Shown here: positions 9,898 through 14,745 of the stretch, piece by piece | Numbering within the stretch: the first letter of the stretch is position 1 | How the letters are laid out: each line of letters begins with the position of its first letter | NCBI RefSeq assembly: GCF_030816295.1 | Contig: NZ_JAUSXV010000001.1 | Span: 2,480,001 to 2,544,000 of the forward strand | DNA: 64,000 bases | From: Microbacterium natoriense | GTDB lineage: Bacteria > Actinomycetota > Actinomycetes > Actinomycetales > Microbacteriaceae | Direction: 5' to 3' | The notes under the pieces: model-generated | The model's input: only the letters and a program-made list of their open reading frames with translations | Told to the model about the DNA's origin: nothing | The model's database searches: none | Program-made: the position numbers and the translations under genes

Positions 9898-11211
9898 TCA
9901 GAAGGCGCGCAGGTTCGCCTGCAGGCCGCCGTCGACGTATTCGCGGCGCAGAATGCCGCGGCGCCGCAAGACGGGTACGAGTTCGTCGAGCGTGCGATGC
10001 AGTGTCACGGGGTGGAAATCGCCCCACAGCAGCACGCCGTCGTTGCCCCAGTCGCCGAGCTCCTCGATCAGATCAGCGAATTCCTCGGCAGTGCCGACGA
10101 AGCCCGAGCGGTCGGCGATGCGCCCGGCTTGCGCCAGCGCGGTGAGATGCGCGCGCAACGGAGCATCTTCTCCGCGGTCGCCGATCAGACGCTGGATGCT
10201 GCCGCGAGACACGTGTGCGCCGAAGATCGACAGGTCGAGCGGCTTGTCTAGATCGAGCGCAGTGAGATCGGTCTCGAGATCGCTGGACTGCTTGCGGGCG
10301 ATCTGTACGAGAGCGGCGGCGTCCGGATGTGCGGACGCCGCGACGATCCGGTCGGCCTCCTCGGGAGAAGACGTGATCACGGGCTGGATGGCGAACAGGA
10401 TCTTGATGTCGTCGGCAGAGCGGCCGGCCGCGATCGCGGCGTCGTGGATCCTGGCGCGGTATGCGCGCACCGAGGCTTCGTGCAGGGGCGCCAGGGCGAG
10501 CTGCACGTCGGAGTTCGCGCCGGCGAAGCCGAGGCCGCGTCCCGAACCGCCGGGGGAGACGATCGCCGGTTCGCCGTTCGGGAACGGAATCGCGTTGAGG
10601 GGACCGTCGAAGGCGAAGTATTCGCCGCGGTGACGGACCGGATGCAGCTTCGAGCCGTCGGCGTAGACATCGGTCGCGCGGTCCGCCAGGAGGGTGCCGT
10701 CGCCCCAGCTGCGCCACAGCGAGCGGACGCCGTCGAGCCATTCTTCGGCCCGGTCGTACGCTTCGTCATGGCCGAGCTGAGGATCGGACGAGAAATGCCG
10801 CGCGCTGCCGGTGTCGGTGACGACGTTGAGGCCGAGCCGGTGCGAACTGAGATGCTGCAGCGTCGCGAACTGTCGCGCCGCCGTGTACGGGAGGTACGCG
10901 GCCGGGTTCACCGTCGGCACGACGCCGAGATGCCGTGTCACCTGGAACAGATACGGCGCGAGCAGCAGGGGGTCGTGCTTGGGGCCACCGAACGCGTGCC
11001 GCACGCGCAGATCGATCGTCTCCGCCGAGCCCAGGGAAGGAGCATCCTCGATGATGACCAGATCGAAGCCTGCCTGCTCGAGTGTGCGAGCGGCCTCCTG
11101 ATAGATCTCGGGCCTCGTCCAGTCGTAGTCCCAGTCGAGCGAGGGGTAGCCCCAGCCCTGCGGGCCGAAGCCGCGGGCCAGGAACCACCCGAAGTGCTGC
11201 TGCCTGGTCAC
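9898..11211 (-). CDS. LLM-class flavin-dependent monooxygenase (NtaA/SnaA/DszA family)
   Basis: 437 residues, the normal size. TIM-barrel family with the typical opening WFLARGFGPQGWG, the segment GLNVVTDTGSARHF (the 'G.N.VT' loop) and GEPAIVSPGGSGRG, ending in the GDWGNDGVLLW segment. Uses reduced FMN from a partner reductase to oxidise small substrates; relatives act on EDTA/NTA or desulfurise organosulfur compounds. GTG start overlaps the stop of the sulfhydrylase gene (GTGA), which hints at sulfur scavenging as substrate context. Confidence 0.88.
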   Translation of the reverse strand: MTRQQHFGWFLARGFGPQGWGYPSLDWDYDWTRPEIYQEAARTLEQAGFDLVIIEDAPSLGSAETIDLRVRHAFGGPKHDPLLLAPYLFQVTRHLGVVPTVNPAAYLPYTAARQFATLQHLSSHRLGLNVVTDTGSARHFSSDPQLGHDEAYDRAEEWLDGVRSLWRSWGDGTLLADRATDVYADGSKLHPVRHRGEYFAFDGPLNAIPFPNGEPAIVSPGGSGRGLGFAGANSDVQLALAPLHEASVRAYRARIHDAAIAAGRSADDIKILFAIQPVITSSPEEADRIVAASAHPDAAALVQIARKQSSDLETDLTALDLDKPLDLSIFGAHVSRGSIQRLIGDRGEDAPLRAHLTALAQAGRIADRSGFVGTAEEFADLIEELGDWGNDGVLLWGDFHPVTLHRTLDELVPVLRRRGILRREYVDGGLQANLRAF

Positions 11212-12506
11212 GCGATCACCGGTTCCTCGATCGCCGCGAGCACGCGCGAGAGATCGCCGATGAGATCGGCGACGTCCTCGATGCCGATCGAGACCCGGAG
11301 AGTGCCAGGGCGGATGCCGAGTACCGCACGCTCTTCTTCGGTGCGATACGCGTGGCTCGTGGTGGCCGGATGCAGCACGAGGGAGCGGACGTCGCCGATG
11401 TGCGTCATGTGCGTGAAGACGTCGACGCTCTCGATGACGTCGCGTGCCGCCTCCAGCCCGCCGCGCAGCGTGAAGGTGAAGATGGAGCCGTAGCCTCCAC
11501 GGAGGTAGCGTTGGGCGAGCTCATGATCGGGATGGCTGTCGAGGCCGACGTAGTCGACGCTCTCCACTGCATCCTGGGCCTCGAGCCACCGCGCGATCTC
11601 CAGCGCGTTCCTCGACTGCCGTTCGACCCGCAGGCCGAGGGTCTCGGCGCCTTGACCGATCAGAAAGGCGTTCAGCGGAGACGGGGTCGTGCCGAAGCGC
11701 GGAGCCACGGCCTCGCGGGCGTAGCCGATGCGGGCGTTTCCGCCGTGGCGCGCGGCGACGCTGGCGAGGCCTCCGCGGCCGGGCAGGACGAGATGGGGTG
11801 CGTTGTGGCCTGCGTGCTCGGCATCGAAGCGACCGTTGTCGACCACGACGCCCCCGAGCACAGAGCCGTGACCTGCGAGGAACTTCGACGCGGAGTGCAC
11901 GACGATCGACGCTCCGTGCTCGAGAGGGCGCAGGAGATAGGGCGTGGCCAGGGTGTTGTCGACGATGAGCGGGATCGCGAACTCATCGCCGATGGCGCCC
12001 ACGGCGGTGATGTCGAGGATGTCGTTGCGGGCGTTCGCGATCGACTCGGCGAACAGTGCTCGCGTGTTCGGTCGGATCGCCGCCCGCCAGGCGTTCGGAT
12101 CGCCGATCTCGTCGACGAACGTCGATTCGATGCCGAGGCGTGCGAGGTTGTCGACGAGCAGCCCGCGTGTGCCCTCGTAGATGTGCGTCGAGGCGACGAT
12201 GTGATCGCCGGCCCCTGCAACGGTCAGGAGGGCGACCGCGACAGCGGCCTGTCCGCTCGCGACGAGCACGGCATCCGCTCCGGATTCGAGGGCCGCGAGC
12301 TGCCGCTCCACGGCCTGCACCGTGGGGTTCCCCGTGCGCGTGTACCCGAAGCCCTCGCCGGTTCCGAAGTGCGTGGCGGCGTGGTCGAAGTCGTCGAACT
12401 CGAAGCCGGCCGTGAGGTAGATCGGGGTCGCCCGCGACGACGCCGCCTGACGGCTGCGACCCGCATGCAGGGCGCGGGTGGCGAAGCTGGGGACGTCGAC
12501 GGTCAT
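11208..12506 (-). CDS. O-acetylhomoserine aminocarboxypropyltransferase/sulfhydrylase
   Basis: 432 residues, PLP enzyme of the Cys/Met metabolism class. PLP-lysine context VHSASKFLAGHGSVLGG at about residue 210; FGYTRTGNPTVQAVERQLAALESG near residue 60; C-terminal GDVRSLVLHPATTSH and LRVSIGIED, all hallmarks. Makes homocysteine from O-acetylhomoserine and sulfide. Start ATG 12506 (MTVDVPSFATRALHAG) preceded by GAGAGG; the extension to 12590 runs into the leucine leader. Coupled to the flavin monooxygenase. Symbol would be metY, but MetZ/CysD-type relatives are hard to separate by eye. Confidence 0.88.
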   Translation of the reverse strand: MTVDVPSFATRALHAGRSRQAASSRATPIYLTAGFEFDDFDHAATHFGTGEGFGYTRTGNPTVQAVERQLAALESGADAVLVASGQAAVAVALLTVAGAGDHIVASTHIYEGTRGLLVDNLARLGIESTFVDEIGDPNAWRAAIRPNTRALFAESIANARNDILDITAVGAIGDEFAIPLIVDNTLATPYLLRPLEHGASIVVHSASKFLAGHGSVLGGVVVDNGRFDAEHAGHNAPHLVLPGRGGLASVAARHGGNARIGYAREAVAPRFGTTPSPLNAFLIGQGAETLGLRVERQSRNALEIARWLEAQDAVESVDYVGLDSHPDHELAQRYLRGGYGSIFTFTLRGGLEAARDVIESVDVFTHMTHIGDVRSLVLHPATTSHAYRTEEERAVLGIRPGTLRVSIGIEDVADLIGDLSRVLAAIEEPVIA

Positions 12507-12576
12507 GGCTGATACCTCTCGATGGTGCGGGTTTCCACAGCGTGTCACGACGTGCGGGGGCACGCTGAACGGGTGG

Positions 12577-12582
12577 TAACCT
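12577..12582 (+). promoter_or_regulatory. -10 box of the leu leader (leaderless transcript)
   Basis: TAACCT ends 6 bases before the ATG of the 15-codon leader peptide, so transcription should begin at or next to that ATG. The -35 region has no good match, usual for actinobacterial sigma-A promoters. Confidence 0.55.
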
Positions 12583-12588
12583 GACGTC

Positions 12589-12636
12589 ATGCGGATCGTG
12601 CTCCTTCTTAGCGGCCGCGACGAGACCTCGTTCTGA
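12589..12636 (+). CDS. Candidate leucine leader peptide upstream of leuC
   Basis: 15 codons reading [15 protein letters not shown], stop TGA at 12634-12636. Three consecutive leucine codons, CTC CTT CTT (12601-12609), two of them the CTT codon that is rare in this genome, stand directly before the 5' arm of a 10-bp GC hairpin. It lies 58 bases before the leuC start and opens at the predicted transcription start. These are the features of a ribosome-mediated attenuator that senses Leu-tRNA. Not recognised from a database; role inferred from codons and position. Confidence 0.65.
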
Positions 12637-12653
12637 GCCCCTCCTCGTCGCGG
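12615..12653 (+). promoter_or_regulatory. Leader hairpin (candidate attenuator) of leuCD
   Basis: CCGCGACGAG (12615-12624) pairs perfectly with CTCGTCGCGG (12644-12653) around a 19-base loop that contains the leader stop codon. A ribosome held on the Leu codons would cover the 5' arm. There is no U-run, so it may act as a non-canonical terminator or on translation: CTCCT at 12641-12645 is complementary to the leuC Shine-Dalgarno AGGAG (12683-12687). An alternative small hairpin ACGA/TCGT (12620-12631) is mutually exclusive. Confidence 0.6.
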
Positions 12654-12694
12654 AGTCCACTGTGGGCCGAACCGCCAGCTTCAGGAGACATTCG

Positions 12695-14146
12695 ATGAAC
12701 ACCCCCGCTGCAGCATCCGCTCCCGCACGTCCGCGGACCCTCGCCGAGAAGGTCTGGGACGATCACCTCGTCGTCAAGGGCGAGAACGGCGAGCCGGACC
12801 TCATCTACATCGATTTGCACCTCGTGCACGAGGTGACCAGTCCGCAGGCCTTCGACGGTCTGCGCGCCGAGGGGCGTCCGCTCCGTCGGCTCGACCTGAC
12901 GATCGCCACCGAGGACCACAACACGCCGACGTGGGAGATCGATAAGCCGATCGCCGACCTCACCAGCCGCACTCAGATCGAGACGCTGCGCCGCAACGCG
13001 CAGGAGTTCGGCGTGCGCCTGCACTCGCTCGGCGACGCCGAGCAGGGCATCGTGCACGTCGTGGGTCCGCAGCTGGGGCTGACGATGCCGGGCATCACGG
13101 TCGTCTGCGGTGACTCGCACACCTCGACGCACGGCGCCTTCGGCGCTATGGCCTTCGGCATCGGCACCAGCGAGGTCGAGCACGTGATGGCCACGCAGAC
13201 CCTGCCCCTCAAGCCGTTCAAGACCATGGCGATCAACGTCGAGGGCACGCTGCGGCCCGGGGTCACGGCGAAGGACGTCATCCTTGCCGTGATCGCGAAG
13301 ATCGGCACGGGCGGCGGCCAGGGCTACGTCCTGGAGTACCGCGGCAGCGCGATCCGCGCGCTGTCGATGGAAGGCCGGATGACGATCTGCAACATGTCGA
13401 TCGAGGCCGGTGCGCGCGCCGGCATGGTCGCGCCGGACGAGACGACCTTCGCGTACGTCAAGGACAAGCCGCACGCGCCGCAGGGCCAGGACTGGGACGA
13501 TGCGGTCGCGTACTGGCGCACGCTTCCCACTGACGAGGGCGCGACGTTCGACGCAGAAGTGTTCATCGACGCCGACACGCTCGAACCGTTCGTCACCTGG
13601 GGCACCAATCCCGGTCAGGGCAGCTCCCTGTCGTCATCCGTCCCGAACCCGGCGGAGATCACCGACCCGAACGAGCGCGCGGCTGCTGAGCGGGCCCTCG
13701 AGTACATGGACCTGACCCCGGGCACCCCTCTCAAGGAGGTCCCGGTCGACGCCGTGTTCATGGGGTCGTGCACGAACAGTCGCATCGAGGACCTCCGTGC
13801 CTTCGCATCGATCATCGAGGGCAAGAAGAAGGCCGACGGCGTCCGCGTCATGGTAGTTCCCGGCTCCGCGCGAGTGCGACTGGAGGCTGAGGCTGAAGGC
13901 CTCGACAAGATCATCACCGAGTTCGGCGCGGAATGGCGCTTCGCCGGATGCTCGATGTGCCTCGGCATGAACCCCGATCAGCTCGCGCCGGGGGAGCGCT
14001 GCGCGTCCACCTCGAATCGGAACTTCGAGGGTCGCCAGGGCAAGGGCGGCCGCACGCACCTGGTCTCGCCTCTGGTCGCCGCGGCGACCGCCATCCGCGG
14101 AACCCTGTCCAGCCCGAGCGATCTGAACGAGACGGTGGAGGCCTGA
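12695..14146 (+). CDS. leuC: 3-isopropylmalate dehydratase large subunit
   Basis: 483 residues, normal for LeuC. Aconitase-fold enzyme converting 2-isopropylmalate to 3-isopropylmalate with LeuD. The three [4Fe-4S] cysteines are visible in [11 protein letters not shown] and in [12 protein letters not shown]; also [30 protein letters not shown] split over the substrate loop. Start ATG 12695 is preceded by AGGAG at 7 bases; the in-frame GTG at 12662 would include the leader region and lacks a ribosome site. First gene of leuCD, probably under leucine-leader control. Confidence 0.97.
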
Positions 14147-14148
14147 TC

Positions 14149-14745
14149 ATGGAGAAGTTCATCACCCACACCGGCATCGCCGCCCCGCTGAAGCGCTCGA
14201 ACGTCGACACCGACCAGATCATCCCCGCGGTCTTCCTGAAGCGCGTCACCAAGACCGGCTTCGACGACGCGCTGTTCCACGCCTGGCGGCAGGATCCGGA
14301 GTTCGTGCTCAACCAGGCGCCGTTCCAGGGGGCTTCCGTGCTCGTCGCCGGCTCCGATTTCGGCACCGGATCCAGCCGCGAGCACGCGGTCTGGGCGCTT
14401 CGCGACTTCGGCTTCAAAGTCGTGCTGAGCCCGCGCTTCGCGGACATCTTCCGGGGGAACTCGGGCAAGCAGGGCCTGCTTGCCGCGACGATCTCTGAGA
14501 ATGACCTGGAACGGATCTGGGCCGAGATCGACCGGAATCCCGGGGTTCAGATCACCGTGAACCTCGAAGAGCGCACCGCCTCCATCGGCGGGGTCCAGGC
14601 CGACATCGGGATCGACGATTACACTAGATGGCGGCTCCTCGAAGGGCTCGATGACATCGGGCTCACGCTGCGCAACGAAGACAAGATCGCGCAGTTCGAG
14701 GCTCGACGCGAGTCGTGGCGGCCTCGAACCCTCCCCGTTCAGTGA
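14149..14745 (+). CDS. leuD: 3-isopropylmalate dehydratase small subunit
   Basis: 198 residues. Starts [26 protein letters not shown], the standard LeuD opening, and holds the swivel-domain loop [17 protein letters not shown]. Works with LeuC in leucine synthesis. ATG sits 2 bases after the leuC stop, so the pair is co-translated. Confidence 0.97.

Follow-up and report, generated by a model that had tools for sequence, protein, structure and literature searches.

A leader homologous with the LEU element of leuA precedes leuCD in Microbacteriaceae and may act by translation attenuation

In Microbacterium natoriense, leuCD is preceded by a leader with a run of leucine codons that is, in our preferred reading and on balance probably, a LEU element acting by translation attenuation, with the Leu codons serving both as the sensor and as the anti-Shine-Dalgarno sequence. 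The leader lies within the stretch of 64,000 nucleotides analyzed here, which we call the window (positions 2,480,001 to 2,544,000 of contig NZ_JAUSXV010000001.1). The initial annotation had proposed at this site a leucine leader-peptide attenuator with a hairpin lacking a U-run; the proposal is supported as a conserved layout in Microbacteriaceae, and the regulation itself is a prediction.

Architecture of the leuC leader

The leader and its downstream genes comprise the following features, all on the plus strand of the window:

12574-12582, +, extended -10 promoter element TGgTAACCT, read from the sequence and recurring across leuC leaders
12589 (ATG) to 12634-12636 (TGA), +, leader ORF of 15 codons, read from the sequence and predicted to be leaderless
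12601-12609, +, Leu codons CTC CTT CTT, the regulatory codons, of which 12601-12605 is the proposed anti-Shine-Dalgarno sequence
12615-12624, +, 5' arm of hairpin P1, CCGCGACGAG, from the sequence and conserved pairing
12637-12640, +, GCCC within the loop of P1, proposed 5' strand of the pseudoknot, from the sequence, the helix in the family, and swap tests
12644-12653, +, 3' arm of hairpin P1, CTCGTCGCGG, from the sequence and conserved pairing
12664-12667, +, GGGC, proposed 3' strand of the pseudoknot, from the sequence, the helix in the family, and swap tests
12683-12687, +, leuC Shine-Dalgarno sequence AGGAG, proposed target of the Leu-run pairing, from the sequence and swap tests
12695-14146, +, leuC, 3-isopropylmalate dehydratase large subunit (TIGR00170, 740 bits, above cut-off)
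14149-14745, +, leuD, 3-isopropylmalate dehydratase small subunit, directly after leuC (TIGR00171, 199 bits, above cut-off)

The initial annotation had noted a 15-codon ORF with Leu codons followed by a perfect 10-bp hairpin lacking a U-run, and all coordinates that were checked agree with the sequence: five bases separate the Leu codons from the 5' arm of P1, all 10 of the 10 pairs of P1 can form in the window, and no U-run follows the hairpin. The proposed pseudoknot comprises 4 bp in the window. A CTCCT motif occupies positions 12641-12645, its last two bases lying inside the 3' arm of P1.

Scans of the region 12200-12900 revealed neither a terminator-like site nor a consensus sigma-70 promoter-like site, the latter scan requiring a -35 element. 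None of the 4227 models of Rfam 15 matched the leader at the gathering score in a search of the whole window, and a search of positions 12500-12760 up to E 10 returned one chance match (E 5.8). The stability of the leader RNA is ordinary (z -1.3, with 22 of 200 shuffled sequences equally stable). The gene divergent from leuC, on the minus strand at 11208-12506, encodes a sulfhydrylase of the O-acetylhomoserine/cystathionine family that reaches the curated cut-off of none of the 25 NCBIfam models listed.

In the window, 6 nt separate the -10 hexamer from the ATG of the leader. Of 85 leuC leaders, 69 carry the pattern TGnTAnnnT within the 45 nt preceding the Leu run, as against 0 of 84 for a 45-nt stretch farther upstream. 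The pattern lies 6 or 7 nt from the start codon in 66 of the 69 leaders that have it. Because this pattern and its spacing recur, the leaderless start put forward in the initial annotation is well supported, although inferentially, and the leuC leader is probably leaderless.

Conservation of the leader at leuC

Upstream regions of leuC were collected via the LeuC protein from 80 loci of named genomes and from loci sampled by genus, family, and order. We anchored 242 of 263 loci and searched them with a regular expression (a Leu run followed by R-D/G); the other 21 were later searched with the model R1. The expression detected a leader peptide at 136 of the 242 anchored leuC loci, and at none of the anchored leuC loci outside the Microbacteriaceae. 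These 136 loci were reduced to 85 non-redundant ones and then to 80 (five were left out), of which a hand-picked 40 went into alignment A2. The covariance model R1 is based on 40 leuC leaders and has no structure other than the 10-bp hairpin.

R1 matches all 52 Microbacterium leuC loci (51 genomes), 29 of 30 loci in one sample of other Microbacteriaceae, 52 of 80 in a second sample of other Microbacteriaceae genera, and 19 of 27 named Microbacteriaceae loci; these counts are not additive, as the named and the other samples share some genomes, and they include rows used to build R1, which match by construction (4 of the 52 Microbacterium matches, 11 of the 19 named ones, and 7 of 29 and 17 of 52 in the other Microbacteriaceae). 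One further building row lay in none of the leuC-locus searches. At 28 of the 80 loci of the second sample, no element was found within about 420 nt before leuC. R1 matched at none of the 72 leuC loci not assigned to Microbacteriaceae, namely 53 named loci (five being metagenome bins that carry no family name) and 19 from other families of the same order.

Since the layout recurs across the Microbacteriaceae, it is more than a chance arrangement at leuC. Both the Leu codons and the stem pairing are conserved in the alignment of related leaders; a lack of such conservation had been named as an outcome that would speak against the element. On a LeuC tree of 36 rows, parsimony places 6 label changes for presence of the element; either one origin with later losses or several gains may account for its history at leuC.

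Homology with the LEU element of leuA

The LEU element was described at leuA of Actinobacteria as an ORF with a Leu run that pairs with the leuA Shine-Dalgarno sequence, together with a pseudoknot (Seliverstov et al. 2005, PMC1262725). R1, although built from leuC leaders only, finds leuA leaders, and the leuC leader is therefore identified as a LEU element: by comparison of sequence and structure it is homologous with the leuA leader and differs in the gene that it precedes. In the genome of M. natoriense, the best R1 matches were the leuC leader (E 1.8e-14) and the leuA leader (E 2.3e-12), followed by a match at E 2.0, among 150 scored of 9680 candidates. The leuA leader peptide of this genome reads MPFGGLLLLSCRDES up to its stop codon. 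At least one R1 match at E <= 0.01 was found in 96 of 100 Microbacteriaceae genomes.

The best R1 match stands before a leuA homologue in Mycobacterium (two genomes), Mycolicibacter, Nocardia, Lentzea, and Amycolatopsis, each with one or two matches per genome, and likewise in Cellulomonas, Arthrobacter, Kocuria, Sanguibacter, Streptomyces lydicus, and Kitasatospora. The S. lydicus leuA leader peptide found by R1, MRFGLLLLSCRGEGL, is letter-identical to the leuA leader of S. lividans in its published form. That leader, LeuL1 in strain TK24, is reported in the available part of PMC8079986 to be leaderless and without a typical terminator, as the leader described here probably is too, and sits at leuA. 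At the leuC loci of Streptomyces and Kitasatospora R1 had no match, one locus offering only 332 nt of upstream sequence. An R1 match at E <= 0.1 was present in 32 of 149 genomes sampled across the phylum. Apart from M. natoriense, 12 of these genomes had matches below 1e-3, the best one preceding a leuA homologue in every case. The phylum-sample matches above 0.004 that were fetched had neither LeuA nor LeuC adjoining.

We also inspected 20 extra regions matching R1. Ten of them lie before second leuA paralogues, whose products are 66-76% identical to the second LeuA of this genome, one before an ordinary leuA, and two before leuB, and one repeats an already known second-leuA copy. The remaining six (E 0.001-0.006) had no leu gene match and were read as chance; two weaker R1 matches (E 0.008 and 0.009) fell outside the fetched set. 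The second leuA paralogues elsewhere can bear a LEU element with an altered P1 sequence of the GCCACGGCGG type. The second leuA paralogue of M. natoriense has no R1 match, though a similar stretch, CTGAGGAGTTG, stands before it. The leuB copies come from two genomes in other families of the same order, with elements 251 and 299 nt before leuB. In the first (L366), the element spans 313-382 and leuB begins at 634; in the second (L368), both lie on the minus strand, leuB following 299 nt after the element. The two elements have E values of 7e-6 and 2e-4 and peptides MRHALILRCRGGA and MARQLVILSSRGEFR, each ending at a stop codon. Against PRK03437, the LeuB protein of L366 has a score of 597 bits, and the LeuB proteins of L366 and L368 share 78% identity. 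We tentatively add leuB to the genes that a LEU element may precede; over these distances, a pairing of the Leu run with a Shine-Dalgarno sequence is uncertain.

The leuC leader shares with the LEU element the Leu-run ORF, the complementarity of the Leu run with the Shine-Dalgarno sequence, the pseudoknotted hairpin, and homology with leuA leaders, and no terminator is mentioned for the LEU element in the available part of PMC1262725. It differs in standing before leuC and not leuA, in having been found at leuC, among the loci searched, in Microbacteriaceae only, and in accompanying the absence of the regulator NdgR/LtbR (see below); the comparison with the 2005 element was made through its text description. 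Position before leuA is, in the part of that text available to us, where the elements were found; if it counts as part of the definition, the leuC copy would be a homologous variant and no member. The initial annotation knew of no described element of this form for leuCD: the kind of element is in fact known from leuA (PMC1262725), and what appears new is its occurrence at leuC.

Pairings within the leader

On the 85 non-redundant leuC leaders, 99.5% of 850 P1 cells are paired, with 23 cells changed on both sides and such double changes in two pairs; slid controls gave 24-68% pairing. Rows of the leuC leader alignment A1 were picked by the codons of the 5' arm only. Over 65 elements from leuC (20 rows), leuA, second leuA, and leuB, pairing is 99.1%, with 61 double changes in four pairs; this value is biased upward because the leuA, second-leuA, and leuB rows (alignment A3) were found by a model that already contains P1. 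In 11 of the 65 rows, all second-leuA copies, the G-C pair at columns 17-63 is replaced by A-U with pairing kept. Covariation of the hairpin, which the initial annotation had asked to be checked, is thus supported by double changes both among leuC leaders and across leu genes, with shared ancestry left in.

The P1 loop is proposed to pair with a stretch some 10-15 nt downstream of P1, forming a pseudoknot. The 4-bp helix is paired in 82.6% of cells over 40 leuC rows. In a swap test on 65 leu leaders, own partners paired at -10.19 kcal/mol and swapped partners at -9.11 kcal/mol (z -4.9, 0 of 5000 permutations); for the 84 leuC leaders alone, z is -2.2. Here and below, the swap tests on pairings leave shared ancestry in.

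For the Leu run and the Shine-Dalgarno sequence of leuC, the swap test gave -9.72 kcal/mol for own and -8.66 kcal/mol for swapped pairs (z -4.7, 0 of 5000 permutations) on 84 leaders, one of the 85 (L021) being left out. The control pairs (loop, upstream, and post-stem segments with the Shine-Dalgarno sequence, the Leu run with the downstream segment and with the coding sequence, and the loop with the coding sequence) ranged from z -1.4 to +0.6. At leuA, the same pairing gave z -3.6 for 57 of 60 leaders, three having no usable start and the leuA starts being rough, and the control pairing of the Leu run with the coding sequence leans the same way there (z -2.1). Of 136 leaders, 120 have CTT as their final Leu codon, whereas eight window genes use CTT at 11 of their 300 Leu codons; by this preference, the nucleotides of the Leu run, and not the amino acid alone, seem to be under selection.

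Masking the nine Leu nucleotides lowered the mean cost of opening the Shine-Dalgarno sequence from 4.78 to 2.94 kcal/mol in the 84 leaders, as compared with 4.86 and 4.74 kcal/mol under two 9-nt control masks. The cost fell by more than 1 kcal/mol in 48 of the 84 leaders with the Leu mask and in 20 and 6 with the controls. In the window itself, the cost of 4.2 dropped to 3.8 with the Leu mask, whereas one control mask brought it lower, to 2.73. The helix between the Leu run and the Shine-Dalgarno sequence in the window has 5 bp (CTCCT with AGGAG). In nested folds its probability is 0.53-0.96 for RNAs ending at 12694 to 12715, and it is gone from 12720 on; being present only in the shorter RNAs, it is plausible co-transcriptionally and weak at equilibrium. 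As a predicted interaction, pairing of the Leu run with the leuC Shine-Dalgarno sequence is supported by the swap tests; the masking results fit it on average, and weakly in the window.

Absence of NdgR/LtbR in Microbacteriaceae

In other actinomycetes, according to the available part of PMC4340878, the IclR-type regulator NdgR/LtbR adjoins and controls leuCD. Like the proposed role of the LEU element, its control of leuCD is exerted from an adjacent site, but it is a DNA-binding protein, and one without a close match in Microbacteriaceae. In relatives it governs leucine and other pathways. Our query was the protein beside leuC of Arthrobacter, which has IclR domains and was named by position and family.

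Within the stretch fetched around leuC, 50 of 53 named loci outside the Microbacteriaceae and 20 of 20 loci of the same order have a counterpart of this protein, whereas none was found in two sets of Microbacteriaceae loci, of 27 and 63. Genome-wide, a counterpart with an identity of at least 58% is present in 52 of 55 members of the order outside the family; two of the three that have none also have no leuC, and the third has leuC at a contig end. Among 100 Microbacteriaceae genomes, in some of which part of the candidates was scored, no close match was found. Some match at E <= 1e-10 was present in 53 of them, the best listed having 40% identity and 102 bits, and we take the matches at this level for other IclR proteins. 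Since the protein is absent from the neighborhood of leuC and has no close match in the genomes, the Microbacteriaceae have very probably lost NdgR/LtbR.

We infer that the LEU element took over the task of NdgR/LtbR at leuCD. The exchange of element for regulator is not one-to-one, because no element was found in the upstream stretch at 28 of 80 loci and eight loci have neither nearby. These eight named loci are leuC of Frigoribacterium, Curtobacterium, Agrococcus (two), Salinibacterium, and Rhodoluna, and of two further Microbacteriaceae lineages, all without the LEU element and without NdgR/LtbR nearby. The full scenario, in which the Microbacteriaceae lost NdgR/LtbR, leuC came to be controlled by a copy of the LEU element of leuA whose Leu codons lock the Shine-Dalgarno sequence, and the element is a movable leucine module, has in our estimate an even chance of being right.

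Model of regulation and alternatives

The proposed mechanism would operate as follows: (i) transcription would start at the ATG of the leader; (ii) with leucyl-tRNA plentiful, the ribosome would clear the Leu codons and end in the P1 loop; (iii) the freed, pyrimidine-rich CTY stretch of Leu codons would then pair with the purine-rich Shine-Dalgarno sequence of leuC and hold down leuC translation, P1 and the pseudoknot bringing the two segments together; and (iv) under leucine shortage, a ribosome stalling at the Leu codons would cover the anti-Shine-Dalgarno sequence and open P1, and leuCD would be translated. Untranslated leuC mRNA may also be shortened by Rho. The Leu codons would thus be sensor and lock at once, and the element would occupy at leuC the role held by NdgR/LtbR in relatives. 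We infer the direction of regulation, the ribosome stall, and the translational step.

The most serious rival, which we consider unlikely although by no means negligible, keeps the same LEU element but lets translation of the leader control Rho-dependent or other termination before leuC, and not access to the Shine-Dalgarno sequence. Northern blots of M. tuberculosis revealed short leuA-leader RNAs of 85, 65, and 45 nt (available part of PMC3526491), which suggest premature termination or cleavage, and the control of leuA in C. glutamicum has been termed transcriptional attenuation (in the part of PMC8709942 available). Mutations in the S. coelicolor leuA leader, as cited in the accessible text of PMC1262725, had effects inconsistent with classical attenuation; together with the short RNAs of M. 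tuberculosis, they count against translation attenuation. Against a transcriptional mechanism, there is no intrinsic terminator: across 84 leaders, no T run exceeds four in the 12 nt that follow the stem, and the first 10 nt past the stem contain 3.2 T on average and never more than six. Such a mechanism also predicts no co-variation between the Leu codons and the Shine-Dalgarno sequence, yet the pairing of the two stands out in the swap test. The authors of the 2005 study, in the part of PMC1262725 available, doubted attenuation, preferred a binding protein acting at the element, and left the mechanism open. The same mutation data, the very high conservation of the P1 sequence within leuC leaders, and the compact pseudoknot would fit a binding protein; we nevertheless regard it as improbable, as the P1 sequence is altered with its pairing kept in the 11 second-leuA rows, and as the Leu codons are kept as CTY after a start set by the promoter.

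The initial annotation had assigned the pairing with AGGAG to the CTCCT at 12641-12645 in the loop region. The five-base complement does exist in the window, but the pairing of the loop with the Shine-Dalgarno sequence gave z -0.24 in the swap test, as against -4.7 for the Leu run, the corresponding consensus of the family reads CTCCC and not CTCCT, and the pairing probability in a 137-nt fold is 0.00 (as it is there for the Leu-run helix). The loop motif is thus probably not the pairing partner, and an attenuator built on it is very improbable. We give equally little credence to a conserved, non-regulatory leaderless ORF that enhances the expression of leuC: such an effect of leader genes has been put forward (available part of PMC4833913), but this would leave unexplained the Leu-specific codons, the hairpin, the pseudoknot, and the restriction of strong matches to leu genes.

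Translation attenuation by the LEU element, the reading that we prefer, can be set beside other systems. Regulatory codons in a short ORF are shared with classical transcription attenuators such as trp and ilvB, including ilvB1 of M. tuberculosis (PMC13236596, in the part available). The leuC leader has the regulatory codons in a leader peptide and lacks the intrinsic terminator of that class, i.e., a G+C-rich hairpin with a U-run. In mycobacterial cysteine uORFs, a ribosome stall reportedly frees a Shine-Dalgarno sequence that is paired with the uORF. These uORFs, mentioned in the accessible text of PMC13236596, are likewise a case of translation attenuation by stalling in a uORF; the leuC leader differs from them in having Leu codons and a pseudoknotted hairpin between lock and key.

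Implications

Searches of the open-access literature on leuC and leuCD leaders or attenuators turned up no description of a leader before leuC in Actinobacteria. Within that literature, what appears new is the presence of the known LEU leader at leuC and its link with the absence of the protein regulator of leuC. For an element whose authors doubted attenuation in 2005, the copies at leuC, leuA, and second leuA provide co-variation that points to a helix between the Leu codons and the Shine-Dalgarno sequence and to the pseudoknot, and they supply the exact mutants for a test. The coincident absence of NdgR/LtbR makes leuC of Microbacteriaceae a clean candidate for RNA control in the place of a protein regulator. 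If the proposed scenario is true, an RNA switch would have replaced a transcription factor at leuCD.
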